A stretch of DNA of 35,890 nucleotides from Anaeromyxobacter sp. RBG_16_69_14 (GCA_001768075.1 MEMX01000033.1:131797-167686); one strand, 5' to 3'; counted from the first letter of the stretch, positions 11,144-27,539 are shown. Notes: generated by a model not told the origin, from the sequence alone. Translations and numbers: made by a program.

Positions 11144-11809
11144 CTATCCGCAACCTCCACCGATCTTCTTCTTGCCACCGCCCGCCGCGGCGGCCTTCTT
11201 GCCCGACTTGAGCAGGCTCGGCTGGTAATTGAGCCTGGCGAGGGTCTGGAGCGCCTCGACGGTCCGGGAGCGAGCCTCGGGGCGGGGGCCCGGCCCCTCG
11301 AACCACGCCGACACGAGCTGCAGCGCGTCGGCATAACCGTCGGGTGGCGACGACTCGGCGAAGAGCGGCACCGGGAGCTCGAACGCGAGGTACCAGGCGC
11401 GCGCGCCATCGGCCAGGTAGTGGATCCGCGCCGTCGGATTGGCCTGCCGAACCTTGACGACGAGCTTCTGCGCCAGCTCGTCCCTGCTGGCGCAGACGAT
11501 CACCGGTGCGTGCGTGCGCAGGAGCGCCTTCAGCTGCTCCGGCCCGGCGCCCGGCATGAGGACGGCGCCTGGGACGTGAAAGCGCGCGTAGGCGCCCGCT
11601 GGGCGTACGTCCACGACTACCGAGCGCTCCTCCTGCACGAGCGCCGCGGCGGCCTTCATGACGCCGAGCGAGGCCTCGGCCGGGTTCGCGGACAGATCGG
11701 GTGGGATCTCGGCCATCGCAGAGCGGCTGGTGACGACGCTCGCCACCATGTAAAGCGCGCTTCCGAGGACGAGCACGGCGGCGCCGAGCCTCGCGTTGAA
11801 CCGGATCAC
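11144..11809 (-). CDS. Membrane-anchored or exported rhodanese-like protein with C-terminal GGGCG tail
   Basis: N-terminal hydrophobic segment; VVVDVRPAGAYARFHVPGAVLMPG...APVIVCASRDELAQKL; ends GKKKIGGGCG*. Confidence 0.8.
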   Translation of the reverse strand: MIRFNARLGAAVLVLGSALYMVASVVTSRSAMAEIPPDLSANPAEASLGVMKAAAALVQEERSVVVDVRPAGAYARFHVPGAVLMPGAGPEQLKALLRTHAPVIVCASRDELAQKLVVKVRQANPTARIHYLADGARAWYLAFELPVPLFAESSPPDGYADALQLVSAWFEGPGPRPEARSRTVEALQTLARLNYQPSLLKSGKKAAAAGGGKKKIGGGCG

Positions 11810-12480
11810 GGCAGGCTCCCTTCTCGGGCGAGGCCGGCCGCGCCTCGCGCCTCGGTCGCCTCCTCATCCTGGTGCTCCGAAGCGCGCGCCGAGGTGCGGG
11901 CGCGCACGAGTTGCTCGATCCTGCCCACTGCCCAGAACGCACCCACGGCGAACAGCGAGACCGCGAAGACCACGATGCCCGAGTTCACGTGGAAGAAGTC
12001 GTGCAGGAGGACGCGTCCGCGCGCACCGGCGTTGGCCAGGGGCGCGAGCGTGTCGTAGCCGAACGTGAACACCGCCGAGCCGAAGGCGATGCCGAGCATG
12101 AAGAGGACCGCGTCGATCTTCCCGCTCACCGCGGCGACGACGGACGTGCCGGGACAGTAGCCCCCGACGATGAAGCCGACCCCGAGGAGGAGCCCGCCCA
12201 CGATCTGGGGGAGGAGATAGGTGTCCAGGATCCCGATGCTGGAGAGCGGCAGGATGGCGAGGAGGTCCAGGACGTAGAGGCCGAGCATGGCGGTGACGAT
12301 GGCGGTGAACATCACGCGCAGCACGCGGAAGTCGCGCCCGTAGAAGTTCGCCGCGAGCCTGTCTGCACGGCCGAATCCGGCCCGCTCGAGGACGAAGCCA
12401 AACCCGATGCCAATCACCACCGAGATCATCATCTCGGTGGGATGGGACATCTTGAGGACGACGCTGAGAGGTCCTTCCAT
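11806..12480 (-). CDS. YeeE/YedE family sulfur-compound transporter, C-terminal-half protein
   Basis: IGIGFGFVLERAGFGRADRLAANFYGRDFRVLRVMFTAIVTAMLG...GGYCPGTSVVAAVSGKIDA. Confidence 0.9.
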   Translation of the reverse strand: MEGPLSVVLKMSHPTEMMISVVIGIGFGFVLERAGFGRADRLAANFYGRDFRVLRVMFTAIVTAMLGLYVLDLLAILPLSSIGILDTYLLPQIVGGLLLGVGFIVGGYCPGTSVVAAVSGKIDAVLFMLGIAFGSAVFTFGYDTLAPLANAGARGRVLLHDFFHVNSGIVVFAVSLFAVGAFWAVGRIEQLVRARTSARASEHQDEEATEARGAAGLAREGSLP

Positions 12481-12498
12481 GGCGATCTCCTAGAGAAC

Positions 12499-13017
12499 CT
12501 AGATCCACTGCCGGCGCACGAACCAGGCCATCCCGTACGCCCCGCCGAACACCGCGAACATGAAGACCCAGCTCCCCAGCGAGAGCTGGGCACCGCCCGT
12601 GAGCGCCTGGCCGCTCGTGCAGCCGCGGGCGAGCTGGGCCGCAAATCCGCTGATGGCGCCACCCACGACCGCCAGGATCCAGCGGTTCTCGATCCGGGCG
12701 CGGGGTCCCCGTACCGTCTCCACCTTGAAGCGCTTCCCCGTGAACACCGCCATGGCTCCACCGACGGCGGAGCCGATCGTCAGCCAGACGATCCAGTCGT
12801 TCAGCGAGCTGCGCTGCGGGTCCGAGAAGAAGGATGCGATGTTCTGGTTCTCCTCGGCCCAGGTCGGTTCCACCGCGTGGATCACCGCCGCCTCGACGTG
12901 CTTGAACGTCCCGCTCGCGCCCAGCCCACGCCCGGTGAGGACGAAGCTCGCGAGCAGCACGAGACCGAGCGCGACGCCGGCCGCGTAGGGGTTCCACAAT
13001 GGCCTGTTCTCGTTCAC
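12499..13017 (-). CDS. YeeE/YedE family sulfur-compound transporter, N-terminal-half protein
   Basis: WNPYAAGVALGLVLLASFVLTGRGLGASG...LARGCTSGQALTGGAQLSLGSWVFMFAVFGGAYG; GTG start. Confidence 0.88.
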   Translation of the reverse strand: MNENRPLWNPYAAGVALGLVLLASFVLTGRGLGASGTFKHVEAAVIHAVEPTWAEENQNIASFFSDPQRSSLNDWIVWLTIGSAVGGAMAVFTGKRFKVETVRGPRARIENRWILAVVGGAISGFAAQLARGCTSGQALTGGAQLSLGSWVFMFAVFGGAYGMAWFVRRQWI

Positions 13018-13018
13018 T

Positions 13019-14543
13019 TCACTCCTCCTTGCTCGCCGCATGGGCGTCCGAATCGTGATCTCGAGTCTGCTGCCCGAGCCGCGCCACCCACTTCGGGCTG
13101 TGATGCCGGGCGTGCTCGTGGTCGATCCGGCCCGTGACCATCGACTTCAGGGCCGGGCGCTCCTCTGCGATGACCGCGGCCATGGTGACGTGGACGGCGA
13201 TCCCCGCCAGCACGAGCGCGATGGAGAGCTTGTGGACCAGGATGGCCGCGGCCACCGCACCGGGCGGGCCGACGTGGAACGTCATCACGAGACCGCTGCC
13301 GATGATGGTGGTCGTCGCCACCAGAACGAACAGCGCGAAGATCTTTTGACCCGCGTTGTACTTGTCCTGCGGCGGGAGCGGTTGCCTGCGCAGCCCGGCC
13401 ATCGCGAGGGGCTTCACCGTCAGCCACAAGAGGTCGTCCTTCGTGATCCTGACCTCCTCGAGGACGTGCCGCGGCCCGCCCTTGAGGAGCAGGAACAAGG
13501 GCACGACGATCCCCGCCCAGACGAGTCCCCAGACCACGTGAAATCTGATGAGGGGCTCGGTGCCGCCGACGAGGCCCGCGAACCACCGCGGGAAGCGCGT
13601 CCCGAAGAGCGCGAAGCTCGCCGCGGACATGAGCGCGGTGCCGGTGGCGACGAGGAGGAGCCAGGAGAGCGCGTTGAACCAGTGGAGGAAACGGACGCCG
13701 CCGCGGTGGCGGAAGAGCTCCCCGTCGCCCGCGCCGCACGCCTTGGCCTGAAGCGGCGTCTCCAGGGCCGGCTCCGGTGTCGGAGGCTGCGTCGCGGCCG
13801 CCTCCTGGCCCTCGCGCTTCACCCGATCCGAGCGCGCCTTGAGGTTCACGAGCGCGCCGCCTGCGATCGCCATGAGGCCGAGCCCCGGAACGACGATTCG
13901 CGCGAACGGCAACGAGACTTGCCATGTCCTCGTGAGCGAGCTCCGCTCGTACCGCTTCACCACGCCCGCCGCGAGGATGCGCTCGCGGTGCGCGCGGCCG
14001 GCGTAGATCGTCTTCGGTCGGACGTCCACATCCGCCGTGACGAGCGGCTGCGCGCCCTTCGACCGGACGAACGCCGAGAGCTTGCCGCCCGAGTCGTCGA
14101 GATCGCCGAAGATGCGGCACTCGGCCAGGCACGTCTGCACGCAGGCCGGCTCCTCTCCACGCGCGACGAACGGCGCGCACAGGTTGCACTTCTCCACGAC
14201 CTTCTTCACGGGATCGAAGTGGCGCGCGCCGTAGGGACAGGTGGAAATGCAGTTGCCGCAACCGATGCAGACGTCGGCGTCGACCATCACCACGCCCGTC
14301 TTCGGGTCGGCGTAGGTGGCCCCGGTCGGACAGTCGGTGGTGCATGGGTGGTCCTGGCACTGCATGCACAGGCCGGGGTAGAAGCTCACCGCGAGGTCGT
14401 CCCTCTCGCGGGTGCCCGTCTCGAACGTGTGGACCCAGTCGCGCGCGGCGCCCGGGCCGCTGTCCCACTGCTCCTTGCAGGCCGAGACGCAGGCCTGGCA
14501 CCCGACGCAGCGGTCGAGGTCGATGCCCATGGCGTACCGCATA
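13019..14543 (-). CDS. 4Fe-4S electron-transfer subunit fused to a formate-dehydrogenase-gamma-like cytochrome b domain
   Basis: CVGCQACVSACKEQW, CMQCQDHPCTTDCPTGA, CIGCGNCISTCPYGARHF, CNLCAPFVARGEEPACVQTC, then multi-TM HRGGVRFLHWFNALSWLLLVATG...IRFHVVWGLVW...LVHKLSIALVLAGIAVHVTMA in the same frame. Confidence 0.88.
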
Positions 14544-14544
14544 T

Positions 14545-16767
14545 CTAGGCCACCCTCCCCGCAGCATCGCGCACCGAGACGAACTGCGTCCGCATGCCGG
14601 TGGTCCCGCTCATGGGGTCCACCGCGTACGTGTCGATCAGGTCCGAGTCGCTCCCGCCCTTGCCGCAGGCCCTCGAGAGCGCCTTCGAGCGGTGGCCGAA
14701 TCCGTGGACCATGTAGACGGCCCCCGCCGGCATGCGCTCCGTCACCTTGAGCGGCATGGGACCGGTCTCCTCGCCTCCGCCGTTCGCGACCATCACCGGC
14801 TGGCCCTCGGCGAGCCCGAGCTCGCGCGCGGCCATTGGGTTCATCCAGAGCGCGTTCGTACCGTCCAGATCGGAGAGGATGGGGTTGTTCTGGGTGCGGC
14901 CGAAGGTGTGGAGCGGGCTGCGGCCGTACAGGAGCCTGAACATCCCGGGCGGCTCCTCGGGCGGCGCCGCGTGGACAGGCAGGGGCGCGAACCCCGCGTC
15001 GGCCAGCTGCTTCGAGTAGAGCTCGATCTTGCCGCTCGGAGTATGGAAGCGGAACTTTTCCCCGTCGGCCAGGTAGAGCGGGGTCTTGCGCGGCACGAGC
15101 TTGATCCCGTCGAGCTTCAGCTTCGCGAGCGAGAGCCCCGCTCCGGAGAGGCGGGTGTCGAGGTACTCCTCGAAGGTCGAGAAGCCGAACCAGTCGCCCA
15201 CGCCGAGCTCGGTGGCGAGCTCCTTTGCGATGCGCCACGCGGGCCGGGTGTCGTGCGGCGAGGCGACGACGGGCTGGCGGATCCCGACGTAGGGCGCCTT
15301 GCCGCTGCCGATGGCGAGGTCGTCGTAGCGCTCGAGGTAGGTGTCCTCCGGGAGGAGGACGTCGGCCCACTGCGTGATCTCGGTGGGCTGCACGTCGCAT
15401 ACGGCGAGGAAGTCGAGGTTCCGGATGGCCTCGACCGTCTCGCGGGCGTTGGGCATCGACTGGATGAGGTTCGTGCCGTGGACGAACCAGCCTTTCACCG
15501 GATACGGGGACCCCGTGCGCGTCGCGTCGCGGATGCCGTTCGTCGTGACTTCCTGGGCAAACCGGAATCGCCTCGCTTCGCTGTCCACGTCCTTCGGAAG
15601 GTCCGGGAAGTCGGGCGCGGGGAAGGCGGGCACGCTGGCCCGCTCCCAGCGGTAGGTCCCGCCCGGTCGCCACCATGCCCCGAGGAGCGCGGTCAGAATG
15701 GCCTGCCCGCGGGCGCGGTGCGTGTCGGCCTCCCCGTACCAGGAGGTGTGCCGGCCCGGATGCACCAGCACCGCGGGCGCAGCCTTCACCATGAGGCCAT
15801 AGGCCGCGACGATCTTCTTCGCCGGGACCCCTGCCTGTGCAGCGGCCCACTCGGGCGTGCAGGGCTCGACGTGCCGGGCGAGGGCGTCGAAGCCGATGGT
15901 GCGCTCCTCGACGTAGCGCCGGTCGTACGTGCCTTCCTTCACGAGTAGACGCAGCCAGGCCAGGATGACGGCCGTGTCCGATCCGGGCTTCACCGGCAGC
16001 CAGAGGTCAGCCTTCTGGGCGACGGTGCTGAAGCGGGGGTCTAGGACGACCAGGCTGGCTCCGCGCGCCCGCGCCTTCACGAAGTCCTGCACCTGGCTGT
16101 TGTGCGCGTTCTCGCCCAGGTGCGACCCGAAGAGCACCATGCAGCGGGTCTCGTCGAAGTCGAGCGGCTCGGGCGACGGGAGCTTCTCGCCGAAGGTGAG
16201 GTAGTAGCCGACGTTGCGCGCCCCCTTACACTGCGAGTAAGCGGGGCCCGCGTAGTTCGGCGAGCCGTAGGCCACCATCATGGTGCGCAGGAGCGGGCCG
16301 CCCGTGCCGTGGTAGAAGAGCGCGAGCGCCTTCGCGCCGTGCTTCTCCTTGATCTTGCGGAAGCCGTCCGCGATGAGCTTGTACGCCTCGCCCCAGCCCG
16401 CCCGGCGGAACTTCCCCTCCCCTCGCGCACCGACCCTGATCATTGGATATTTGAGGCGGTCCTCGTCGGTGACGAAGCCCGCTCCGGCCTGTCCGCGGCC
16501 GCACAGCTTCCCGCGCGCGTTCGGGTAGTCGGGGTGGCCCTGGAGCGAGAGCACGCGGTTCTTGCGGACGCGCGCCACGACCCCGCAGTTCCAGAAGCAG
16601 AGCTCGCAGAAGGTCGGGACCTCACGCTCCGGCGGCAGGCCGTGCTGGTCCCTGGTGAGGCCGAAGGCCTGGGCCGTCGCGGGCGCCGAGACCGCGCCCG
16701 CGATGGCGCCGGTGGCCGCCACCTTGAGGAACGTCCGCCGCGCGATGCGATTCGACTCTTCCGCCAT
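14545..16767 (-). CDS. Molybdopterin oxidoreductase catalytic subunit, Tat signal (PhsA/PsrA-like)
   Basis: RRTFLKVAATG Tat-like motif; PTFCELCFWNCGVVARV...GKLCGRGQAG 4Fe-4S site; SQCKGARNVGY candidate Mo-ligand Cys; Mo-enzyme motifs throughout. Confidence 0.9.
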   Translation of the reverse strand: MAEESNRIARRTFLKVAATGAIAGAVSAPATAQAFGLTRDQHGLPPEREVPTFCELCFWNCGVVARVRKNRVLSLQGHPDYPNARGKLCGRGQAGAGFVTDEDRLKYPMIRVGARGEGKFRRAGWGEAYKLIADGFRKIKEKHGAKALALFYHGTGGPLLRTMMVAYGSPNYAGPAYSQCKGARNVGYYLTFGEKLPSPEPLDFDETRCMVLFGSHLGENAHNSQVQDFVKARARGASLVVLDPRFSTVAQKADLWLPVKPGSDTAVILAWLRLLVKEGTYDRRYVEERTIGFDALARHVEPCTPEWAAAQAGVPAKKIVAAYGLMVKAAPAVLVHPGRHTSWYGEADTHRARGQAILTALLGAWWRPGGTYRWERASVPAFPAPDFPDLPKDVDSEARRFRFAQEVTTNGIRDATRTGSPYPVKGWFVHGTNLIQSMPNARETVEAIRNLDFLAVCDVQPTEITQWADVLLPEDTYLERYDDLAIGSGKAPYVGIRQPVVASPHDTRPAWRIAKELATELGVGDWFGFSTFEEYLDTRLSGAGLSLAKLKLDGIKLVPRKTPLYLADGEKFRFHTPSGKIELYSKQLADAGFAPLPVHAAPPEEPPGMFRLLYGRSPLHTFGRTQNNPILSDLDGTNALWMNPMAARELGLAEGQPVMVANGGGEETGPMPLKVTERMPAGAVYMVHGFGHRSKALSRACGKGGSDSDLIDTYAVDPMSGTTGMRTQFVSVRDAAGRVA

Positions 16768-16818
16768 GGCCGTTTTCCTTAACGTGCGCCGCACCCGGCG
16801 GGGCACGGCCGTCGACGC

Positions 16819-17109
16819 TCACTCCACCGAGCAACGGCGCATGCAGCGCACCAGATCCCGAAGCGCCTGCTCTTCGAGACGGTAGTGCGCGAACCCCGCC
16901 TCCCGGCTCACCCCCACCAGGCCATGCATTCGGAGGATCCGCAACTGCTGCGAGGCGATCGGCTGGGTGACCCCGAGTTCCTCCGCGAGGGCGTTCACGT
17001 GCTGCTCGCCCTCGCACAGGAGCTCGATGATGCGCAGGCGCACCGGGTGGGCCACGGCTTTCAGGACCTCCGCGATCCGCTCGGCCCTGTCGTGCGTGGT
17101 GACCGTCAT
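16819..17109 (-). CDS. ArsR/SmtB family transcriptional regulator
   Basis: VLKAVAHPVRLRIIELLCEGEQHVNALAEELGVTQPIASQQLRILRMHGLVGVSREAGFAHYRLEEQALRDLVRCMRRCSVE. Confidence 0.92.
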   Translation of the reverse strand: MTVTTHDRAERIAEVLKAVAHPVRLRIIELLCEGEQHVNALAEELGVTQPIASQQLRILRMHGLVGVSREAGFAHYRLEEQALRDLVRCMRRCSVE

Positions 17110-17123
17110 CTCTCGTTCTCTAG

Positions 17124-17141
17124 ATATCGCAATGTCGCTAT
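17124..17141. promoter_or_regulatory. Candidate ArsR-family operator (imperfect dyad)
   Basis: ATATCGCAATGTCGCTAT, dyad ATAnCG-N6-CGnTAT, 14 nt upstream of the ArsR start codon. Confidence 0.45.
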
Positions 17142-17550
17142 GTGCCGCCGAAAACGTTTTGCAAACACTGTGCGCGAACTCGAGCCGCAGTGGTTCTGTT
17201 GAAGATCCGGGGGAGTCCGGGCGGATCCCCCCGGCCGGGGCTCGCAAGCCTTGCCGATCGCGTGGCCTCGGGCGCGCACTCGATGCGCGCCGCGCATCGT
17301 CATCTTCGCGATCGCAACCGCGGTGAGGGCACACGGACTGCGCGCAAACACCCCCGGCGCGCACAGACACACACACACCCGCCCTTCCCGCGTCCGTCGA
17401 CTACAGGGGTGTCACGTCGGACATCGGAAAAGATGACGCGGTGCTTCATCAGCAAGGAGAAAGCCGCCGAGATCGGCCGTAAGATGCACCCGGTCCTCGA
17501 CAGTCAGTCGTAAGTTCGGGACAGACACGGCAATCCTCGGGGGGGAGCAC

Positions 17551-17862
17551 ATGCAGCTCATGGCATACGGCTTGGCAGCGCTCGCGATTCTGGTGATGGG
17601 CCTGAACGTCGTCCTCGCCGTCCGACTCCGGCGCGCGATCGTCGGCGGCGAGATCGGCGAGAAGTGGGGCCTGCTCACCATCCTCGTCGCCTTCTTCTTC
17701 GTCGGGTATCTCTTTTCCCCGCTGGCGCTCTACTACGAGATCCCCAGGGAGTACCTCAGCATGCTGGTCTTCGCCGTCTTCCTCTTCGGCGCGATCTACG
17801 TCTGGGTCGTCATCGGCATCATCCGGGACATGCTCACCTTCCTGAAGCTCGTCAAGAAGTGA
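17551..17862 (+). CDS. Small integral membrane protein, function unknown
   Basis: 103 aa with about three hydrophobic segments; Gly-rich SD-like stretch (gggggggag) upstream. Confidence 0.7.
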   Translation: MQLMAYGLAALAILVMGLNVVLAVRLRRAIVGGEIGEKWGLLTILVAFFFVGYLFSPLALYYEIPREYLSMLVFAVFLFGAIYVWVVIGIIRDMLTFLKLVKK

Positions 17863-17900
17863 GCTCCCCGCAGCCCGGAGCAGCGGTGGCGGCGAGCTGA

Positions 17901-18836
17901 TCAGGCCTGGCCGGCCGCCACCATGATCCAGCGCAGCGCGAAGCCGCCCGCGAGCACCAGAAGCGGGGTGACCACCGTCGCGCGCAGGTGGAGGCGCGAC
18001 TCGAGCGTCTCGAGCAGGAGCGGAACCGCCAGCCCCGCGATCACGACGAGGCTCCAGAACGACGCCGTCCATGGGCCACCGAGGAGCAGGGACGCGGCGT
18101 CCTTGCTCGCGGCGCCGCTCGTCACGAGCCCCGCCAGGAAGAGCAGGAGCACGGCAACCTCCAGCCCGATGGCGAGCTTGTCCCATCGCGTGACGAAGTG
18201 ACGCTCGTCCTCGGAGAGCCGGAACAGCATGAGGAACGCGGCGCCCGTGGAGAGGCCCGAGGCGAGGAAGAGCGGACCGAACAAGGCCGAGTTCCATAGA
18301 GCGCGCGCTCCGAGCGTGCTGAGCAGGATGCCCGTGTACAAGCCCAGGGCGGCGCCCACCCCGAGGTTCACCCACCGAAGCTCCTCGAAGCGCTGCCGGC
18401 CAAAGGCGCTCAGGGCCCGCGTCGGCGCCCCGAGGCCGAAGCGGCCCATGAACGCGGCGACCCGCTCGACCTGCTCGTCCCCGAGGCCGGCGAGGGCCAG
18501 CGCGAGCGAGACCGGGTAGACGACGACCAGGATCCAGGCGCCCCAGGACATCGGCGACGTCCACCTAAAGGCGAGATAGAAGCGCCAGGCGTGGAGCTTG
18601 AAGGACAGGTCGAGGAAGAGCGCCCCCATGCCCACGGTCACCAGCACCGGCGCCGCGAAGGCGAGCCAACGCACCGCCGGCGACCGGTCGCCCTCCCTCA
18701 TCATGAGGAGCGAGGTCAGGATCATCACCCCGGCAGCCATGCCTCCGAGGAAGAGGTAAACCGGGATCTCCCACCCCCAGATGTGGAGCAGTGAGTCGAT
18801 CATCAGGCTGTGCCGAGCGACGTCGATCTCGTTCAT
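17901..18836 (-). CDS. nrfD: NrfD/PsrC-like membrane subunit
   Basis: WGWEIPVYLFLGGMAAGVMILTSLLMM...FKLHAWRFYLAFRWTSPMSWGAWILVVVYPVSL...STGAAFLML is typical of NrfD/PsrC quinol-interacting subunits. Confidence 0.9.
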   Translation of the reverse strand: MNEIDVARHSLMIDSLLHIWGWEIPVYLFLGGMAAGVMILTSLLMMREGDRSPAVRWLAFAAPVLVTVGMGALFLDLSFKLHAWRFYLAFRWTSPMSWGAWILVVVYPVSLALALAGLGDEQVERVAAFMGRFGLGAPTRALSAFGRQRFEELRWVNLGVGAALGLYTGILLSTLGARALWNSALFGPLFLASGLSTGAAFLMLFRLSEDERHFVTRWDKLAIGLEVAVLLLFLAGLVTSGAASKDAASLLLGGPWTASFWSLVVIAGLAVPLLLETLESRLHLRATVVTPLLVLAGGFALRWIMVAAGQA

Positions 18837-18872
18837 GGAGTCACCAATTTCGGGGCTTCCGGCCAAGCTTGC

Positions 18873-20072
18873 CTACCCGCTGCAGCCGCCGCCCGCCTTG
18901 CGCGGCGCGCCGGCAGGGGCCGCCACGGGCGTCGGAGGAGGAGGTGCCGCCTTCATGCCGGTCATGGCCGATCGGATACCGGAGCGCAGGCGGTAGAGCT
19001 CGACGTCGGCAGGCAGGGCGCCGGCCGCCAGCGGCGCCGGCTGGACCAGGGCGAAGGTTTCCCAGCCCTTCCATCCCCCCTGGAGCGTGAACACGCGTCC
19101 GGTGTAGGCGGCGGCCGCTGGCGGCAGCTCGAGGAGGTCGCCCTCCCCCACCAGGACGAGGTCGCGCGACGGGTTCGCGTAGGCGAGGCCGAGCGAGCCG
19201 AGCTTGTCGGCCGGGACGCACTCCGCGCCCGGGATGCGCCTGGTCGCGCACGCCTCGAGCGCGCGGAGGTCCACGATCCGCAACCTCCACGGCTCGTCGA
19301 ACACACGCCGGGCCAGGTCGAGCTGACCGATGGCCGGGGCCTCGCGGATCCGCGCCTGGGTGCTGCTCGGCAGGGCGAGGCCCGCGACGCCCACCAGCAC
19401 GACCGCAGCGAAGCCTGCGAAGACCAGCCGGCCCGGCTTTCCCGCGGGCGTCGCCATGGCGACCGGATCCGCCCGGCCGGACAGCACCTTCTCCAGCTTC
19501 TCTGCCCCGAGGAAGCAGCCCACGGCCATGGCGGTCACGGCGAGCGCCACGACCACCGGCCCGGCCTTCGCCGGCAGGTGGAACAGCTCCCACAGGTAGT
19601 AGTTGCCGAAGTTGCCCGCGTTGTGGAACCAGGCGAACCCGGGGCGCCACTCGACCTCCGACCAGGCCACCTGGCCGACGATGACCCCAAGGATCGTGTA
19701 GAGGCCGTCGAGCTTGCCGGAGGCCATGGCCACGAAGGACGTGCCCGGGCAGTACCCGGACATGATGAAGCCCGCGCCGAGCAGGAAGCCACCCGCTACC
19801 ATGGGGAGGAGGAAGGTGGCGCTCGCGGCGTGGTCGGCGACAACCTTGAAGTCGGCGAGTCCGACCGTGGACGCCAGCACGAGCCCGAGCATGGCGGTGA
19901 CGATGGCGCTGAACATGACCTTGAAGACGGTCATGTCGGTTCCGTAGAACTGCGCCGCGAGCTTGGGCGCGCGGCCGAAGCCAGCGCGCTCGAGCACGAA
20001 CCCGAACCCGAAGCCGATGAGGACGGCGACCACGAGGCCCAGCTCGTGCGCCGGAAGGACCGGGAACGTCAT
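18873..20072 (-). CDS. YeeE/YedE C-terminal-half transporter fused to a rhodanese-like domain with C-terminal GGGCSG tail
   Basis: FGFGFVLERAGFGRAPKLAAQFYGTDMTVFKVMFSAIVTAMLG...SGYCPGTSFVAMASGKLDG, then RLRIVDLRALEACATRRIPGAECVPADKL...VFTLQGGWKGWETFAL...AGGGCSG*. Confidence 0.9.
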   Translation of the reverse strand: MTFPVLPAHELGLVVAVLIGFGFGFVLERAGFGRAPKLAAQFYGTDMTVFKVMFSAIVTAMLGLVLASTVGLADFKVVADHAASATFLLPMVAGGFLLGAGFIMSGYCPGTSFVAMASGKLDGLYTILGVIVGQVAWSEVEWRPGFAWFHNAGNFGNYYLWELFHLPAKAGPVVVALAVTAMAVGCFLGAEKLEKVLSGRADPVAMATPAGKPGRLVFAGFAAVVLVGVAGLALPSSTQARIREAPAIGQLDLARRVFDEPWRLRIVDLRALEACATRRIPGAECVPADKLGSLGLAYANPSRDLVLVGEGDLLELPPAAAAYTGRVFTLQGGWKGWETFALVQPAPLAAGALPADVELYRLRSGIRSAMTGMKAAPPPPTPVAAPAGAPRKAGGGCSG

Positions 20073-20578
20073 CGCCACTCCCTCCTCATGAACCACGCGA
20101 GCGCGTAGCCGCCGCCGAACACGGAAAACATGAAGGCCCAGCTGCCGACGGAGAGCAGCGCGCCGCCGGAGAGCGCCTGGCCCGAGGTACAACCGCGGGT
20201 CATCTTGGCGGCGATCCCCATGAGCAGGCCGCCCGAGAGGGCCAGCGCCACGCGGGCTCCCGTGCCGATCCGCGGTCCCTTCAGGACCTCAATCTTGAGC
20301 CGCCCCGAGGTGTAGGCGGCCACGAAGCCACCGAGGAGCACGCCCAGGATCTCGAATACCAGCCAGGAGACGTGAGCGCTCGCCGCGGCACGGGCCAGCG
20401 GCGCGGTCTTCGCCACGTGGGCGGGCGCCAGCACATCGAGCGCGGCGATGCCGAAGCGCAGCGACGCCCCGGACGCCCCGAGGCCGTTGCCCATGACCAG
20501 GAAGGCGCTGAGCAGCACGAGGCCCAGCGCCACGCCGGCCAGGTACGGGTTCCAGAACTTGTTCGGGTTCCGTTCCAT
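20069..20578 (-). CDS. YeeE/YedE family sulfur-compound transporter, N-terminal-half protein
   Basis: FWNPYLAGVALGLVLLSAFLVMGNGLGASG...MTRGCTSGQALSGGALLSVGSWAFMFSVFGGGYALAWF; overlaps the next gene by ATGA. Confidence 0.9.
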   Translation of the reverse strand: MERNPNKFWNPYLAGVALGLVLLSAFLVMGNGLGASGASLRFGIAALDVLAPAHVAKTAPLARAAASAHVSWLVFEILGVLLGGFVAAYTSGRLKIEVLKGPRIGTGARVALALSGGLLMGIAAKMTRGCTSGQALSGGALLSVGSWAFMFSVFGGGYALAWFMRREWR

Positions 20579-20591
20579 GAGCTCTCCAGCG

Positions 20592-21131
20592 CTACGAGAG
20601 GAAGAAGACGTTCGGCTTGTTGCCGGCCTCGGGCTGCAGGACCCTGCTCCTGCGGCTGCGCAAGAGGCGCGCGACGGGGCTGTCCGGGTCCTCCAGGTCA
20701 CCGAAAGTGAGCGATCGCGTCGGGCACGTCTCGACGCACGCCGGCTGCTTCCCCTTCTGCACGCGGTGCAGGCAGAAGGTGCACTTGTCCACGAAGCCGG
20801 CCGGATGGACGTAGCGGGCGCCATAGGGACAGGCGGCGATGCAGGCCTTGCAGCCGGTACACTTGTTCCTGGCCACCGCCACCACGCCGCCCTCTGCGAC
20901 ATGCGAGGCGCCCGTGGGGCAAGCGTCCACGCAGGAGGGCTCGCTGCAGTGGTTGCAGCGCTCGGAGCGGATCTCCATCGAGAGGTCCGGGAACGCGCCC
21001 CGCACCTCCTGCACGATCCAGTCGCGGAAGCCGCCGTCCGGGAGGGCGTTCTCGGTCTTGCACGAGATGACGCAGGCGCTGCAACCGACACAGCGCACCG
21101 TGTCCACGGCCATGGCGTAGCGCTTCTTCAT
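20592..21131 (-). CDS. 4Fe-4S electron-transfer subunit (PhsB/PsrB-like)
   Basis: CVGCSACVISCKTEN, CNHCSEPSCVDACPTGA, CTGCKACIAACPYGARYV, CTFCLHRVQKGKQPACVETCPT. Confidence 0.92.
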   Translation of the reverse strand: MKKRYAMAVDTVRCVGCSACVISCKTENALPDGGFRDWIVQEVRGAFPDLSMEIRSERCNHCSEPSCVDACPTGASHVAEGGVVAVARNKCTGCKACIAACPYGARYVHPAGFVDKCTFCLHRVQKGKQPACVETCPTRSLTFGDLEDPDSPVARLLRSRRSRVLQPEAGNKPNVFFLS

Positions 21132-23362
21132 GCGAACCTCTCGGCAACCTCGATGCGCACGAAGTTCACGTTCATGCCCGTGCCGCCCATGATCGGGTCG
21201 ATCTTGTACCGGGTGACGAGCTCGGCGTCGGACGCGCCCCGCCCGTGCGCGTACCGGAGCTTCTTCGCCGTCTGCCCCCAGCCGTGGACCAGGTAGACGC
21301 AGTCGCCGCGAATGCGCTCGGTCACCTTCGCCTTCACCGGTCCGGAGCGCGCGCCGTCCTGGTTCACGAGCCAGACGCGATCGCCGCTCCTGAGTGGGTG
21401 ATCGAAGCCCGGCAGCGCGCGCGCCACACCGGCGTTCACCCACACCTCGTTCTCCGGGTAGGGCTCGGCGAGGAGCCGGTTGTTCACCGTGCGGCCAAAG
21501 GTATGGGTGGGGGCGCGGCCCGTGAGCAGTCGGAAGTGGCCCGGAGGCCCCTCCTCCTGCGGGTAGTACTGCGGGAGCGCGTCGAAACCGAGCTTCGCCA
21601 GTTGCTCGCTCTTCAGCTCGATCTTCTTCGAGTCGGTGGCGACCTGGACCGGGAGCCCCTCCTCCTCGCACGTGGGCACGGGCTTTCCCAGCACCACGCC
21701 CTTGGCCCGGACCTGCGCTACGTCATGGCCGCCGGCGCGCAGCCTCGCGTCCACGTACTCCCGAGCGTCCTTCCAGGGGAAGTACGCGGAGAGGCCCACG
21801 TGGGCCGCCATCTCCTTGGCGATCCACCAGCCCGGCTTCGAGTCGTACATCGGCGGCACAGCCTCCTGGCGCAGCGCGAGGAAGGGCTGCTTGTACGCGG
21901 GGGCGGCGACGTCGTCGTCGCGCTCGAGGTAGGTGGCCTCGGGCAGCACCACGTCGCTGTAGCCGCAGATCTCCGCCGGCAGGACGTCGATGGAGACCAC
22001 GAAGTCGAGGTTCTGGAGGGCGGTGATGGTCTGCTTTCGGCTCGGCAACGCCTGGATGAGGTTGCAGCCGTAGATGATCCAGGCCTTGAGGTCGTACAGC
22101 GCGTGCCCGGGCACGCTGGCGTCGCACAGGCCGGAGGCGATCACCTCGCCGGCGATGGGATACCCGCCGCTCTTCGGCTTGTCGGCGACGCCCTTGGGAC
22201 CGTGGGGGAAGGGCTTCGCGACGGAGAACGGCGCCAGGGCCATCTTGCCGGGGCTCACGTAACCGCCGCGCCGGCCCCAGCTCCCCAGCAGCGCTGCCAG
22301 GATCGCCATGGCGCGCGCGCGCTGCGTGTCGTCGCCGTACCAGGTGGTGTGGCGGCCCGGATGGACGAGCGAGGCGGGCCGCGCCGAGGCGATGAAGCGC
22401 GCGCTCTCGCGGATGAGCTCGGGCCGGATGCCGGTGATGGGGTAGGCCCACTCCGGCGTCTTGTCGGCGACGTGCGCCTTGAGCTCGTCGAGACCCATGG
22501 CGTGGCTCGCCAGGTACTCGGCGTCGTAGCGCTTCTCTGCGAGCATCACGTTCATCCAGGCGAGGAGCAGCGCGATGTCGGTGCCGGGCTTGATGGGGAG
22601 CCAGTAGCGCGCCTTCCCCGCCGCCACCGAGAAGCGCGGGTCGACGACGACGAGCTGGGCGCCCTTGCCCACCGCCTCCGCCAGCTCCTGCACCTGGGTG
22701 TTGTGCATGTTCTCGCCCAGGTGGCTGCCGATGAGCGTGATGACGCGCGCATTGGCGATGTCGATGGGCTCGGGCGAGCCGAGCGGCGTACCGTAGGTGA
22801 GGAGGTAGCCTGCCTCTCGCGGGCCGCGGCACTGCGCGTACGAGGGCGCGCCGACGTTGGGCGAGCCCCATGCTTTCATGAAGTGCTTGAACCAGCTGCC
22901 GCCTGAGCCATGCGTGAACAGGGCGACGGCCTCCGGGCCGTACTTGCGCTTCACGTCGAGGAGTCCGTCCCCGACGCGGTTCAGGGCCGCGTCCCAGCTC
23001 ACCTCCTCGAACACGTCCTCGCCGCGCTTCTGCCGGCGCACGAGGGGCTTCTTCAGCCGATCGGGGTCGTAGAGGAGGCCGGTCGCGCCGGCGCCGCGCG
23101 GGCACAGCATGCCCCGGGAGAGCGGGTGCTCGGGGTTGCCGACGATCTTGGTGACCCGGCCGTCCTTCACGTGCGCGAGCACGCCGCAGCCCCAGAAGCA
23201 CAGCTCGCAGAACGTGGCGACGACGTGGTCGCCGTCGGTTCCTGGGTCCTCCACGCGATTGGCATCGAGGCCCCACCACTTGCTGGTGGGACCGGAGGCG
23301 AGCACGCCCCCGCCGACTGCCGCGCCACCGATCTGGATGAACTGCCTGCGGGTGAGACTCAT
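21128..23362 (-). CDS. Molybdopterin oxidoreductase catalytic subunit, Tat signal (PhsA/PsrA-like)
   Basis: MSLTRRQFIQIGG Tat motif; ATFCELCFWGCGVLAHV...GMLCPRGAGA; AQCRGPREAGYLLTYG; same family as 14545..16767. Confidence 0.92.
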   Translation of the reverse strand: MSLTRRQFIQIGGAAVGGGVLASGPTSKWWGLDANRVEDPGTDGDHVVATFCELCFWGCGVLAHVKDGRVTKIVGNPEHPLSRGMLCPRGAGATGLLYDPDRLKKPLVRRQKRGEDVFEEVSWDAALNRVGDGLLDVKRKYGPEAVALFTHGSGGSWFKHFMKAWGSPNVGAPSYAQCRGPREAGYLLTYGTPLGSPEPIDIANARVITLIGSHLGENMHNTQVQELAEAVGKGAQLVVVDPRFSVAAGKARYWLPIKPGTDIALLLAWMNVMLAEKRYDAEYLASHAMGLDELKAHVADKTPEWAYPITGIRPELIRESARFIASARPASLVHPGRHTTWYGDDTQRARAMAILAALLGSWGRRGGYVSPGKMALAPFSVAKPFPHGPKGVADKPKSGGYPIAGEVIASGLCDASVPGHALYDLKAWIIYGCNLIQALPSRKQTITALQNLDFVVSIDVLPAEICGYSDVVLPEATYLERDDDVAAPAYKQPFLALRQEAVPPMYDSKPGWWIAKEMAAHVGLSAYFPWKDAREYVDARLRAGGHDVAQVRAKGVVLGKPVPTCEEEGLPVQVATDSKKIELKSEQLAKLGFDALPQYYPQEEGPPGHFRLLTGRAPTHTFGRTVNNRLLAEPYPENEVWVNAGVARALPGFDHPLRSGDRVWLVNQDGARSGPVKAKVTERIRGDCVYLVHGWGQTAKKLRYAHGRGASDAELVTRYKIDPIMGGTGMNVNFVRIEVAERFA

Positions 23363-23453
23363 GCTCCAGCTCCTTCATGACTTCAGGGCTCGGGCCCCCC
23401 GTCCCTCCCTGCCTTGTTGGAGCCAGGCCGCCCCCGAGCAGATTCAGCGCTGG

Positions 23454-24701
23454 CTAGAAGCGGTAGGAGAGGCCGAAGTCCACCTCGAACTGCGACATCT
23501 CGGTGGTGTACGCGGTGATGAACTGCTCCGCGGCGTTTGCGCCCTGGAGCTTGGTGTTGAGCGCGTAGATGCCGGTGAGGTTGAACGCCCACCTGTCGCC
23601 CAGCTCGTAGCCCACGCCGCCGGTGACATGGTGCTCGGTCACCGCGGGGAAGGCGAGGTTCTCGAAGGCGCGGTTCGGATCGAGCGGCATCTTTCCGTAG
23701 TTGTAGCCGGCGCGGACCTTGAGCCCGCGCATCGGCGCCACCTGCGCGCCGACCTTGAGCACCCACTGGTCGCTCCAGTTCATGTCGAAGGGCATGGCGC
23801 CGGTGGCGCTCGCGTCGCTGCTATATTTGGGAAGGCCCTTGCCCATGGTCTGCGACCAGTTGATCCACTGCACGTCGGCCGCGAGGAGCAGCATCTCGAA
23901 CGGGGTCACCGACGCGCCGAGGGTGACGCTCTGCGGCTGGTCGAAGGTGAGCTTGTCGGTGCCACCCGGGATGGTGGTACCGGGGGCCATGGGATTCGGG
24001 CGCTCGGCGACCTTGAAGGAGAAGTCCTGGAACCAGCTCTTCGTCTCGTAGGCGGCACCGAGAGTGACCATCCTCACCGGGGTGAACTTCACGCCCACGG
24101 TCGCGCCGATGCCTGCGGAGGTGGCGGTGTCGTGCAGCGCCTGCCCGAAGCCGGAGGCGACGTCGTACTTCATCTGAGCAACCATGACGTTGGCTGTGGC
24201 ACCGACGGAGAGCGTGTCGGTGAGCTTGTACGCGGCACCCGGCGTGAAACGCCCCTGGAGATACGATGTGTAGGTGGCGCCCTGGTACAGGTTCGTCGGA
24301 TAGTCGACCCCCATGCCTGCCACACCGAAGACCCCGATGCCGGCCGAGAGCCGATCGTCGATGGGGCGGACGTAGGCGAGGGCCGGGATGGGCGACCCGC
24401 CGCGGGTCGAGTCGAGGGTCGCGCCATCTTGCGCGACGATCTGCCCCGGCGCGGCACCCGTGGCGCTGTACTTCACTGTTGGCTTGAAGTACGCGCCGCC
24501 GACGTCGAGCCGCTGGCCGAGGTCGGCGATGCCGGCCGGATTGGAGAGCAGCGAGCAGGCATCGAGGGTGGTGCCGACACCGACGCCGCCCATCGAATCC
24601 TGCACCGGGCCGAAGCCGATCATGCGCATGCCGTTCGTGGCATAGGCCGGGGACGCCGCGACGACGCACGTCGCGGCGAGGAGCAACGCGATCTTTCTCA
24701 T
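23454..24701 (-). CDS. OmpP1/FadL family outer-membrane transporter
   Basis: Signal peptide, then TNGMRMIGFGPVQDSMGGVGVGTTLDACSLLSNPAGIADLGQRLDVGGAYFKP and a beta-rich body ending in FGLSYRF*. Confidence 0.92.
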   Translation of the reverse strand: MRKIALLLAATCVVAASPAYATNGMRMIGFGPVQDSMGGVGVGTTLDACSLLSNPAGIADLGQRLDVGGAYFKPTVKYSATGAAPGQIVAQDGATLDSTRGGSPIPALAYVRPIDDRLSAGIGVFGVAGMGVDYPTNLYQGATYTSYLQGRFTPGAAYKLTDTLSVGATANVMVAQMKYDVASGFGQALHDTATSAGIGATVGVKFTPVRMVTLGAAYETKSWFQDFSFKVAERPNPMAPGTTIPGGTDKLTFDQPQSVTLGASVTPFEMLLLAADVQWINWSQTMGKGLPKYSSDASATGAMPFDMNWSDQWVLKVGAQVAPMRGLKVRAGYNYGKMPLDPNRAFENLAFPAVTEHHVTGGVGYELGDRWAFNLTGIYALNTKLQGANAAEQFITAYTTEMSQFEVDFGLSYRF

Positions 24702-24857: not shown

Positions 24858-24917
24858 GCGACGAAACGTTTCAGTCGATGCGACGGCTCGTTTCAGCCCG
24901 CGACAGAAACGTGTCAC
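24858..24917. promoter_or_regulatory. Three phased palindrome-like sites, candidate activator binding sites
   Basis: GCGACGAAACGTTTCAG, GCGACGGCTCGTTTCAG, GCGACAGAAACGTGTCAC; cores at 24863, 24885 and 24906 (22- and 21-nt spacing). Confidence 0.55.
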
Positions 24918-24967
24918 TCTTTCGACAGGGGATTGGCACGAAGCTCCCCCGCGAAAAGAGGCGCCCC

Positions 24968-26392
24968 ATGGATCAGGGCTCGGAGCTCATTACGGCGCGC
25001 GAGGTCGCCTTTGCCGCGGTGAACGCGGCCTTCGGCTCGCTGGGCCGCATCTGCATGGCCCTGGACTCGAGCTTCTGCGTCCGCCACGTCTCGGAGAAGT
25101 TCGACGCGCTGGCCGGTCCCGGAGCGGCGGCGCGCCTCATGGGCCAGCCGATCGCGTCCTTGCTCGGCCCCGAGCTCTTCGGTCCCGACGGACCACTCCG
25201 ACTGGCCCTGCTCGCTGGCGAAAAGCGCGAGGGCTGGCGCGCGCTCCTCCGCTTCGGGGGAGGGGGCTCACGGCTCCTCTCGGTGACGGCCGCGCGGCTC
25301 CAGCACGATCCCCACGGGGTCTGCGATCCCCAGGCGCTCTACCTGCTCGTGTTGCGACCGGCCGAGGAGGAACCGGTGGAGGCCCACGGGCCGATCGCCG
25401 GGTTCGGCGTCCTCTTTCGCTCGCAGGCGATGGCGCGGGTGTTCCGGCTCATCGAGTCGCTGCAGAACGGCGAGTCCACCGTCCTCATCACGGGCGACAG
25501 CGGGACGGGCAAGGAGGTGATGGCGGGGATCATCCACGCGCACTCGCCCCGCCGCAACGGACCGTTCGTCGCCGTCAACGCGGCAGCGCTGCCCGGCGAG
25601 CTTCTCGAGAGCGAGCTCTTCGGCCACGTCCGCGGCGCCTTCACAGGCGCCACGCGCGATCGCGTCGGCCGGTTCGAATCCGCGAACGACGGGACGTTGT
25701 TCCTCGACGAGGTGGGCGACCTGCCGCTGCTCCTTCAGGTGAAGCTCTTGCGAGTCCTGCAGGAGCACACCTACGAGCGCGTCGGCGACAGCCAGCCGCG
25801 GAAGACGAACGCGCGCATCATCGCCGCCACGCACCGGGACCTCCGCCGCGCCGTGGAGGCGGGCACCTTCCGCGAGGACCTCTACTACCGGCTGCGCGTG
25901 ATCCCGATCGAGCTCCCGCCCTTGCGGGCGCGGCGGGAGGACATCGAGCCGATTGCGCGCCTGCTCCTGTCACGCGTCGGCACGCGCACCGGCCGCGCCC
26001 TCCGCTTCTCGCCGGACGCGCTTCGAGCGCTGCTCTCCCACGATTGGCCGGGCAACGTGCGGGAGCTCGAGAACGCCCTCGAGTACGCGGCGACCGTCTG
26101 CGACGGGCAAACGCTCCAGCCCGAGGACCTGCCCACGGAGGTGCTCGGGAGCGCGAGCCGACGGCAGGAGAAGGCCGGGGCGGACCCCACGCCCTCACCC
26201 CCGCCGAGCGAGGTCCCGGCGCTGCGTGGTGTGTCGGGGGCCTCGCAGAATGAGGCCGCCTCGCTCAGGGCGGCGCTCGAAGCGCATCGGTGGAACCGCG
26301 CCGAGACCGCCCAGGCGCTCGGGCTGAGCCGCAGCACGCTCTGGCGCAAGATGCGCGCGCTCGGGCTGGCGCGAGCCGTGGGCTCAGGGTGA
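24968..26392 (+). CDS. Sigma-54-dependent transcriptional activator (PAS-like N-terminus, AAA+, Fis HTH)
   Basis: GDSGTGKEVMAGIIHAHSPR, ELFGHVRGAFTGAT, GTLFLDEVGDLPLLLQVKLLRVLQE, HDWPGNVRELENALEYA, RAETAQALGLSRSTLWRKMRALGL. Confidence 0.95.
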   Translation: MDQGSELITAREVAFAAVNAAFGSLGRICMALDSSFCVRHVSEKFDALAGPGAAARLMGQPIASLLGPELFGPDGPLRLALLAGEKREGWRALLRFGGGGSRLLSVTAARLQHDPHGVCDPQALYLLVLRPAEEEPVEAHGPIAGFGVLFRSQAMARVFRLIESLQNGESTVLITGDSGTGKEVMAGIIHAHSPRRNGPFVAVNAAALPGELLESELFGHVRGAFTGATRDRVGRFESANDGTLFLDEVGDLPLLLQVKLLRVLQEHTYERVGDSQPRKTNARIIAATHRDLRRAVEAGTFREDLYYRLRVIPIELPPLRARREDIEPIARLLLSRVGTRTGRALRFSPDALRALLSHDWPGNVRELENALEYAATVCDGQTLQPEDLPTEVLGSASRRQEKAGADPTPSPPPSEVPALRGVSGASQNEAASLRAALEAHRWNRAETAQALGLSRSTLWRKMRALGLARAVGSG

Positions 26393-26465
26393 TTGGCCGG
26401 AGCGGGTAAGGGTGCGGGCGAGCGTGGGACCATCACGCCGACGCACTCCCCTCCGGCGCCCAGGC

Positions 26466-27524
26466 TCACCGCCGGGCGCTGGCCGGCTTCGCCCCAGCCA
26501 CAGCCGCGCCGTATCCCTCGCCCGGCCGTGCCTTTCCCTTGAACACCACGTACACGAAGATCGTGTAGCCGAGCATGATCGGCACCCCGATGAGGGCGAT
26601 GACGAGCATGGTGTAGAGGGTGAGCGGGGTGGACGAGGCGTTGTAGATGGTGAGGCTGTTCGCGAGCGAAGTGCTGGACGGCACGAGCGCCGGATAGGCC
26701 GACAGCGCCGCCACCAGGATCATGAAGACGATCACGGCCGACGAGGCCACGAACGCCAGGGCCTTCCGCCCGGTCTTCGTGAAGACAGGCGTCGCCACGA
26801 GAGACGCCACGAGCAGCGCCGCCAGGATCCAGAAGAGCGGGTTCGAGGTCTTCTGGAACAGGAAAGGTGACACCACGACGGTGGCTGCGGTCGCCGCGGC
26901 GTAGAGCGCCAGGAAAGCCGCGAACGCCCCGAGCGCGATCCTCCCCATCCGGTCGGCCAGCTCCCCGTCCGTCTTCATCCTCAAATATATCGCTCCGTGC
27001 ATGACGAAGAAGGCGCACGAGACGAGGCCTACCAGCACGGCGTACGGGTTGAGCAGCCCGAGGAAGCTCCCCTGCCACGGGAACTCGGGTGCCGGGCCGA
27101 TGGGCACGCCGCGCAGGACGTTGCCGACCGCCACGCCGAAGAGGATGGCAGGGAGCAGGCTGCCCAGGCCGAAGGCCCAGTCCCAGACCTTCGTCCAGCC
27201 CGGCGACGGCACCAGCGCGCGAAACTCGATGGACACCGCGCGCGCGATGAGCGCGACGAGGAGCAACATGAAGGCGAGGTAGAAACCGCTGAAGACGGTC
27301 GCGTAGACGATGGGGAAGGCCGCGAAGAGGGCGCCACCACCGGTGAGCAGCCACACCTCGTTGCCATCCCATACCGGGGCGATCGACGCGACGTACACGT
27401 CGCGCTCCTCGCTGGAGCGGGCGAAGAGCGAGAGCGCACCCACCCCCAGATCGAAACCGTCGAGGACGGCGTAGCCGGCGACCAGCACGCCGACGAGGAG
27501 GAACCAGATCGTGTTGAGGTCCAT
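26466..27524 (-). CDS. cydB: Cytochrome bd ubiquinol oxidase subunit II
   Basis: MDLNTIWFLLVGVLVAGYAVLDGFDLGVGAL...APVWDGNEVWLLTGGGALFAAFPIVYATVFSGFYLA. Confidence 0.95.
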   Translation of the reverse strand: MDLNTIWFLLVGVLVAGYAVLDGFDLGVGALSLFARSSEERDVYVASIAPVWDGNEVWLLTGGGALFAAFPIVYATVFSGFYLAFMLLLVALIARAVSIEFRALVPSPGWTKVWDWAFGLGSLLPAILFGVAVGNVLRGVPIGPAPEFPWQGSFLGLLNPYAVLVGLVSCAFFVMHGAIYLRMKTDGELADRMGRIALGAFAAFLALYAAATAATVVVSPFLFQKTSNPLFWILAALLVASLVATPVFTKTGRKALAFVASSAVIVFMILVAALSAYPALVPSSTSLANSLTIYNASSTPLTLYTMLVIALIGVPIMLGYTIFVYVVFKGKARPGEGYGAAVAGAKPASARR

Positions 27525-27539
27525 GTCGTGCCCTCCCCT

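Follow-up and report, generated by a model that had tools for sequence, protein, structure and literature searches.

The PsrA enzyme of Thermus is a quinol-linked polysulfide reductase. In Wolinella, the rhodanese-type carrier Sud passes polysulfide sulfur to Psr, as cited in PMC2754497, and YeeE was the importer in a model of a Desulfurivibrio dismutans psr operon with a secreted rhodanese protein (PMC12142623). The split transporter YedE1E2 imports zero-valent sulfur and yields glutathione persulfide (PMC10812762). In Candidatus Thermonerobacter thiotrophicus, psrABC was found in 2019 to be followed by two PF04143 genes and a rhodanese gene, a neighbourhood read as sulfur metabolism, and these psrABC genes are related to MROS_1774-1776 and IALB_1661-1663 (PMC6338057). 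Little is understood of the route by which sulfane sulfur leaves periplasmic enzymes and crosses the inner membrane. Here we analyzed a stretch of 35,890 nt from Anaeromyxobacter sp. RBG_16_69_14 (referred to as the window in the rest of the text), which carries two gene sets, A and B, each combining a PsrA-like molybdenum (Mo) catalytic subunit, an iron-sulfur (FeS) subunit, a split YeeE-type transporter (PmpA and PmpB) and a rhodanese-fold carrier (Rho) with a Cys-containing tail. Both modules are real and conserved, in an arrangement far beyond chance, and the Cys tail follows PmpAB, not the Mo enzyme or the rhodanese fold.

Gene calls and family scans (Pfam and NCBIfam) placed every gene named in the original prediction on the minus strand inside positions 11144-24701. 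Set A is ordered FadL, Mo subunit (MoA), FeS, PmpA, PmpB-rhodanese fusion and NrfD, and set B is ordered ArsR, Mo subunit (MoB), FeS-cytochrome b fusion, PmpA, PmpB and rhodanese. The proposal that the two sets share one gene order holds for the core Mo-FeS-PmpA-PmpB-Rho only, as the flanks, the fusions and the placement of NrfD or cytochrome b differ. Inside each core, adjacent genes overlap or almost touch in an operon-like manner. Among members of the host's family, version A occurs in most genomes, version B in others and both in two (G022 and G044); in G022, the two versions adjoin each other in reverse order. Recent duplication of one module was rejected on the grounds of this reverse-order side-by-side pair, of the 44% identity between MoA and MoB and of their separate clades. 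The last two features make sets A and B two old, distinct versions.

The set B carrier (11144..11809) is a membrane-anchored periplasmic rhodanese-fold protein of 221 aa that ends in KKKIGGGCG, and the Pfam rhodanese model matches this set only (PF00581, 32.6 bits, cut-off 22.2). In set A, a periplasmic pseudo-rhodanese is fused to PmpB (18873..20072) and ends in RKAGGGCSG; its domain was found through relatives and an AlphaFold model. Both Cys-tailed rhodaneses announced by the original prediction are thus present. The AlphaFold2 model of the set B carrier (predicted local distance difference test (pLDDT) 83) comprises a transmembrane (TM) helix at residues 3-24, the rhodanese domain and a disordered tail, and that of the set A fusion places a TM helix at 213-233, followed by a rhodanese-like domain and again a disordered tail. 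The top Foldseek matches were rhodanese domains, for example that of YgaP, with a best E of about 1e-3. Of 54 unfused carriers, 39 have a TM helix with the positive side facing inwards and 8 have one in the opposite orientation.

All 79 complete Rho proteins carry a Cys in their last residues, which is the sole Cys of the protein in 59 of them; the tail types seen include KKKEGC, GGGCSG and SGGCG. Five incomplete Rho proteins stand outside these 79, four because of contig ends and one because of a frameshift. At L066 12832-14500, the PmpB-rhodanese frame is broken in the middle of the rhodanese domain by a frameshift or an assembly error. The catalytic-loop column holds a Cys in only 4 of the 79 proteins, which means that most lack the catalytic Cys of a rhodanese; the set B protein has a Cys beside this column (IVCASRD) and the set A domain has none. 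No SoxY domain was matched among the Pfam hits of the window, and the likeness to SoxY is one of the C-terminal Cys arm only.

A Cys-tailed protein is fused to PmpB or lies just after it in 97 of 99 assessable PmpAB loci (90/92, plus 7/7 further Mo-less loci). The 92 derive from 97 PmpB loci, five of which are cut by contig ends and two of which have no tail. Scored by pattern, a tail is fused to PmpB or lies at most 1.3 kb downstream in 88 of the 97 loci, two more being missed by the pattern. The same pattern occurred at 19 of 485 random positions, and chance occurrence of the tails was rejected on this comparison. The rhodaneses of Mo-less PmpA-PmpB-Rho loci are only weakly like those of the module (about 30-100 bits), and their tails are kept (KGGCG, LGGC, AGSCG, GGCGI and VVGGC). 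At three loci (L036, L132 and L134), the rhodanese is replaced by an unrelated small protein exported by the general secretory (Sec) pathway, encoded directly after pmpB and ending in FFKKPGGC or FFKKAGGC; its Sec-type signal peptide is independent evidence that the tail is periplasmic. At L132 6302-9330 and L134 8250-11110, PmpA-PmpB and the small Cys-tailed exported protein are found next to an ArsR gene and a cytochrome c of the octahaem type (PF11783), so that this transporter branch is paired with a redox enzyme of a second kind. The classical PmpAB of Pseudomonadota (L151-L154) lack a Cys-tailed partner, and the tail is also absent from more distant Mo-cytochrome b loci without PmpAB (L160-L162, 825-851 bits). 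We rejected the tail as a hallmark of the Mo enzyme, since it persists with PmpAB in Mo-less loci and is absent in L160-L162. At L139 5952-7994, a metallo-beta-lactamase protein with three rhodanese domains is encoded just upstream of PmpA and ends in KKRNAGC.

The predicted linkage of the Mo enzyme with a split YeeE and a Cys-tailed rhodanese is kept in related genomes and across phyla. On contigs of sufficient length, genes for close Mo-subunit relatives adjoin FeS in 89 of 89 cases, PmpA in 72 of 75, PmpB in 71 of 74 and Rho in 65 of 68. We obtained 80 named loci from public genomes bearing at least eight phylum-level names, spanning Ignavibacteria/Chlorobi, Bacteroidetes, Verrucomicrobia (Opitutaceae), Acidobacteria, Gemmatimonadetes, Planctomycetota, Gammaproteobacteria, Eisenbacteria and Myxococcales, and all of them read Mo-FeS-NrfD-PmpA-PmpB-Rho unless the contig ends. 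These loci, one genome per species, are the best matches of a sequence search and hence not an unbiased sample. As an unselected check, 179 Myxococcota genomes were scanned: of 27 Mo matches scoring above 1000 bits, 25 have a PmpA gene at most 5 kb away on the same contig, and one of the remaining two is located at a contig end. Compared to the common form, set A has NrfD at its end and Rho fused to PmpB, while in set B cytochrome b replaces NrfD.

The first transporter half-gene of each set matches the C-terminal half of PF04143 and is PmpA, a YedE1-type half transporter with an RGCTSG Cys in set A (20069..20578, 80.5 bits, profile 162-309) and, in set B, a gene with a GTG start after AAGGAGG (12499..13017, 65.5 bits, profile 176-309). 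The second matches the N-terminal half and is PmpB, which in set A is the YedE2-type portion of the fusion, with a GYCPGTS Cys (50.5 bits, profile 4-199), and in set B a separate gene (11806..12480, 53.2 bits, profile 9-157). PmpA followed by PmpB is the reverse of the order in full-length YeeE, and the original labels, which put the N-half first, had to be swapped; our assignment agrees with the published definition of PmpA and PmpB (PMC11582611). Relative to the TsuA reference positions Cys91 and Cys293 (PMC11582611), the Cys equivalent to Cys293 is invariant in PmpA (88/88) and that equivalent to Cys91 is invariant in PmpB (85/85). Scores against the TsuA equivalogs of NCBIfam were 40 and 39 bits, far below the cut-offs of 400 and 645. 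In a tree, the PmpAB pairs of the module form a branch separate from the classical pairs.

MoA (21128..23362, 744 aa, PF00384/PF04879/PF01568) is a PsrA-like catalytic subunit of the Mo-bis(pyranopterin guanine dinucleotide) type (Mo-bisPGD), and MoB (14545..16767, 740 aa, PF00384 127.5 bits) is a PsrA/PhsA-like Mo catalytic subunit. MoA has the N-terminal twin-Arg motif RRQFIQ and the Mo-ligand Cys178, and MoB has RRTFLK and Cys179; the 4Fe-4S Cys and the Mo-ligand Cys are kept in 21 of 21 catalytic subunits, and RRxF is invariant in the A1 group. Among solved structures, MoA is closest to PsrA of Thermus thermophilus (PDB 2vpw, 704 bits), the next best match reaching 199 bits. PhsA is the best NCBIfam model for both proteins, with scores (NF012032, 441.5 bits for MoA and 487.5 for MoB) that stay under its cut-off of 694. 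MoA matched the ArrA structure 6cz7 with 125 bits, and the score against the ArrA model was 118 bits, with a cut-off of 1600; ArrA and TtrA were compared with MoA and MoB by score only. In trees, MoA, Thermus PsrA and widespread relatives form one group (ultrafast bootstrap 100), and MoB belongs to its own well-supported clade beside this group, a sister placement with a support of only 53. Both fall with PsrA and away from FdnG. Judged from their sequences, both catalytic subunits belong with the sulfur-family Psr/Phs molybdoenzymes, the placement on which the original prediction depended. E. coli PhsA falls outside the MoA and MoB groups, as does a third Psr/Phs-like catalytic subunit of the window's genome (G000:C63:3505-5532, L043), which groups with E. 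coli PhsA; neither PmpAB nor a carrier lies beside it on its short contig.

The FeS subunit of set A is PsrB/NrfC-like with four 4Fe-4S clusters (20592..21131, 179 aa, NrfC 174 bits, DsrO 170 bits), and its 16 cluster Cys are invariant in 99 of 99 such proteins. An NrfD/PsrC-type quinone-site membrane subunit of 311 aa (17901..18836, PF03916 139 bits) completes a PsrABC complement in set A. Set B lacks an NrfD-type subunit and has instead a four-cluster FeS protein fused to an FdnI/PhsC-type cytochrome b (13019..14542, NrfC 132 bits at 4-165, formate dehydrogenase gamma 80 bits at 280-489).

Set A begins with a FadL/OmpP1-type outer-membrane protein of 415 aa (23454..24701, PF03349 77.8 bits, cut-off 29.7). 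FadL-type genes are rare, with 2 in the 5.6 Mb of the window's genome (G000), and 16 of the 53 loci with sufficient flank have one a few kb or less from the Mo gene, a proximity that would fit the entry of hydrophobic sulfur species. Set B begins with an ArsR-family regulator of 96 aa with Cys32, Cys89 and Cys93 (16819..17109, PF01022 48 bits), the best solved match of which is BigR (56 bits). An ArsR gene is found close to the module in 11 of the 53 loci, and several Ignavibacteria have a MerR-like gene instead. The module-linked ArsR proteins keep an alpha2 Cys in 11 of 16 cases and a C-terminal Cys in 14 of 16. Their alpha2 Cys is displaced by one helical turn relative to that of BigR, suggesting that the sensor chemistry may differ. 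About 20-40 kb before the window, on the same contig, lies a sulfur-gene island (G000:C33:92001-131800; L147 4418-19832 and L148 3-1776) with HdrA/Qmo-like genes, AprA (851 bits), DsrA (576), DsrB (503), DsrMKJOP and a GltD/DsrL-like oxidoreductase. DsrA is missing from four other family genomes that were tested. The host may be a sulfate reducer or a sulfur disproportionator.

We lean towards a reading in which each set is a sulfane-sulfur module, made up of a Psr-type complex, the PmpAB channel and a Cys-armed carrier, with persulfide delivered for import. The gene content and its conservation, the periplasmic signals, the invariant tail Cys and the linkage of the tail to PmpAB were observed; from them we infer the substrate, the direction of electron flow, persulfide loading and docking on PmpAB as follows. 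The Mo subunit, exported by twin-arginine translocation, would form with FeS and NrfD (or cytochrome b) a Psr-type complex through which electrons pass between a periplasmic sulfur compound and the quinone pool, most likely with reduction of polysulfide-type sulfur to sulfide by quinol electrons. Zero-valent sulfur would pass through a split YeeE/YedE channel composed of PmpA and PmpB. The carrier would be tethered at the outer face of the inner membrane and would bear its functional thiol on a long, flexible arm at the C-terminus, where the Cys would take up a sulfur atom as persulfide. The loaded arm could then swing to the periplasmic mouth of PmpAB to deliver sulfur for import and, where a Mo complex is present, might also trade sulfur with its active site. 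In short, the module probably catches sulfur outside the cell membrane and passes it inwards or to the enzyme, and the tail is best read as a putative SoxY/DsrC-like arm giving sulfane sulfur to PmpAB, with the Psr-like complex acting as a reductase. Coupling of a sulfur redox enzyme to transport via a rhodanese-like carrier, as originally proposed, is the best-supported reading, except that the carrier role appears to lie in the C-terminal Cys arm and not in the rhodanese active site. That proposal is also only partly borne out because we infer the substrate and direction, and the sole expression data on an orthologue concern arsenate (PMC5492636). More tentatively, the C-terminal Cys arm might be a dedicated periplasmic loading device for the whole split-YeeE branch, with varied carriers (rhodanese, small exported protein, perhaps metallo-beta-lactamase/rhodanese) and varied redox enzymes (Psr-like, octahaem cytochrome, cytochrome b) in front.

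Several points weigh against a sulfane-sulfur module. Melioribacter roseus has psrABC genes (MROS_1774-1776) behind a MerR gene, and they match the module in an M. roseus metagenome-assembled genome (MAG; L125). Growth of this species was not stimulated by elemental sulfur, thiosulfate or sulfite (PMC3534657), and its psrA transcript rose with arsenate when no sulfide was added (PMC5492636). We found no activity, interaction or persulfide data on any module member in the literature. The model of the set A fusion is of modest confidence (pLDDT 70), and 2 of the 99 PmpAB loci (L139 and L142) have no tail protein in the expected place. Finally, TusA, the likely cytosolic acceptor, has no match in 4 of 7 non-myxobacterial module genomes, some of which are possibly incomplete MAGs. 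From this count, TusA/YeeD as an obligatory partner was rejected as a general rule, and the absence of TusA here is no defect of the locus.

It is unlikely that the Mo complex works instead as an oxidase that passes electrons from sulfide or carrier-bound persulfide to the quinone pool, with PmpAB importing the product for cytoplasmic oxidation. The presence of DsrAB, AprA, a DsrL-like gene and DsrMKJOP nearby in the window's genome means that imported sulfur could be oxidized or disproportionated in this host. However, none of the 11 other module genomes tested has DsrA, a full SoxB match was obtained in only one module genome tested, and the nearest relative with a solved structure, Thermus PsrA, is a known quinol-linked polysulfide reductase.

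Quite unlikely, yet retained as a rival in view of the M. roseus data, is a role of the Mo complex in respiratory reduction of arsenate (or thioarsenate), the sulfur genes serving thiol or thioarsenate chemistry. The authors who observed arsenate induction of M. roseus psr/phsA (MROS_1774) without added sulfide proposed an arsenate reductase (PMC5492636), and set B contains an ArsR regulator. Yet the M. roseus evidence is at the transcript level only, in an article that does not mention rhodanese or DUF395 genes (PMC5492636), the catalytic subunits are far from ArrA (125 bits, versus 704 for PsrA), and the closest solved match of the set B ArsR, BigR, is a sulfur-responsive repressor.

Very improbably, the tail Cys would be a structural residue or a metal or lipid attachment point and not a sulfur-carrying thiol. 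Several tails are strongly basic (KKKEGC) and could just bind the membrane surface, and thiol chemistry at this Cys is a prediction; its lone invariance, free C-terminal position and linkage to a sulfur transporter nevertheless favour such chemistry, and a Cys at the C-terminus leaves no lipobox. The least probable alternative, in which PmpAB and the Cys-tailed carrier serve chiefly in sensing or sulfur assimilation and share only regulation with the Mo complex, draws on SoxT1B, a signal unit for the ArsR repressor SoxR (PMC11582611), on the 11 of 53 loci with nearby ArsR genes and on PmpAB-Rho loci without Mo genes, but a nearby ArsR gene is missing from most module loci, the MerR-like gene takes its place in several Ignavibacteria, and the operon-like overlaps and fusions suggest a joint function beyond co-regulation.

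Two other features of the window were recorded. Between the two sets, a small hydrophobic open reading frame at 17551-17862 (+) probably encodes a membrane protein and has no Pfam match. A sigma-54 activator gene, divergent from FadL, and a pair of cytochrome bd oxidase genes lie at 24878-28859; the region upstream of FadL showed no site resembling a sigma-54 promoter.

Occurring in uncultured and cultured bacteria of many phyla, the module points to a mechanism that hinges on a single residue, the tail Cys. It also provides an annotation rule for Psr-like enzymes whose substrate cannot be told from sequence alone, and calls into question the arsenate assignment of one such enzyme, that of M. 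roseus. The neighbourhood described in Ca. Thermonerobacter contains the same genes as the module; the tail, a cross-phylum survey and a mechanism were not found in that article (PMC6338057), which was the only description that literature searches on the module and on sulfur respiration in Anaeromyxobacter yielded. In the open-licence literature, we likewise found no account of how widespread the module is, of the Cys tail and its association with PmpAB, or of the exchange of the carrier domain. PhsABC (L126, E. coli SE11 plasmid) resembles set B in its PhsC/FdnI-like cytochrome b, but its catalytic subunit shares 31% identity with MoA and the phs operon lacks PmpAB and a carrier. PmpA/PmpB of Serratia and YedE1E2 of Cupriavidus are likewise two half-size COG2391 proteins with RGCTSG and GYCPGTS Cys, whereas such classical split pairs (L151-L154) have no Cys-tailed partner and the module pairs fall in a separate branch. 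With PsrABC and Sud (Wolinella; Thermus thermophilus PsrABC, 2vpw), the module has in common the Mo-bisPGD, FeS and NrfD subunits and a periplasmic rhodanese-fold carrier working with Psr, to which it adds a membrane sulfur transporter and, in set B, a cytochrome b in place of NrfD. The single Cys of Sud, which sits in the rhodanese loop, does the transfer, whereas in the module carrier the loop Cys is mostly lost and the thiol lies on a C-terminal arm. Such an arm is shared with SoxYZ and DsrC, in which the working Cys is likewise on a flexible C-terminal arm (GGCGG in SoxY, the penultimate residue in DsrC), but the module carrier has a rhodanese or small unknown domain and is tethered to, or fused with, the importer.

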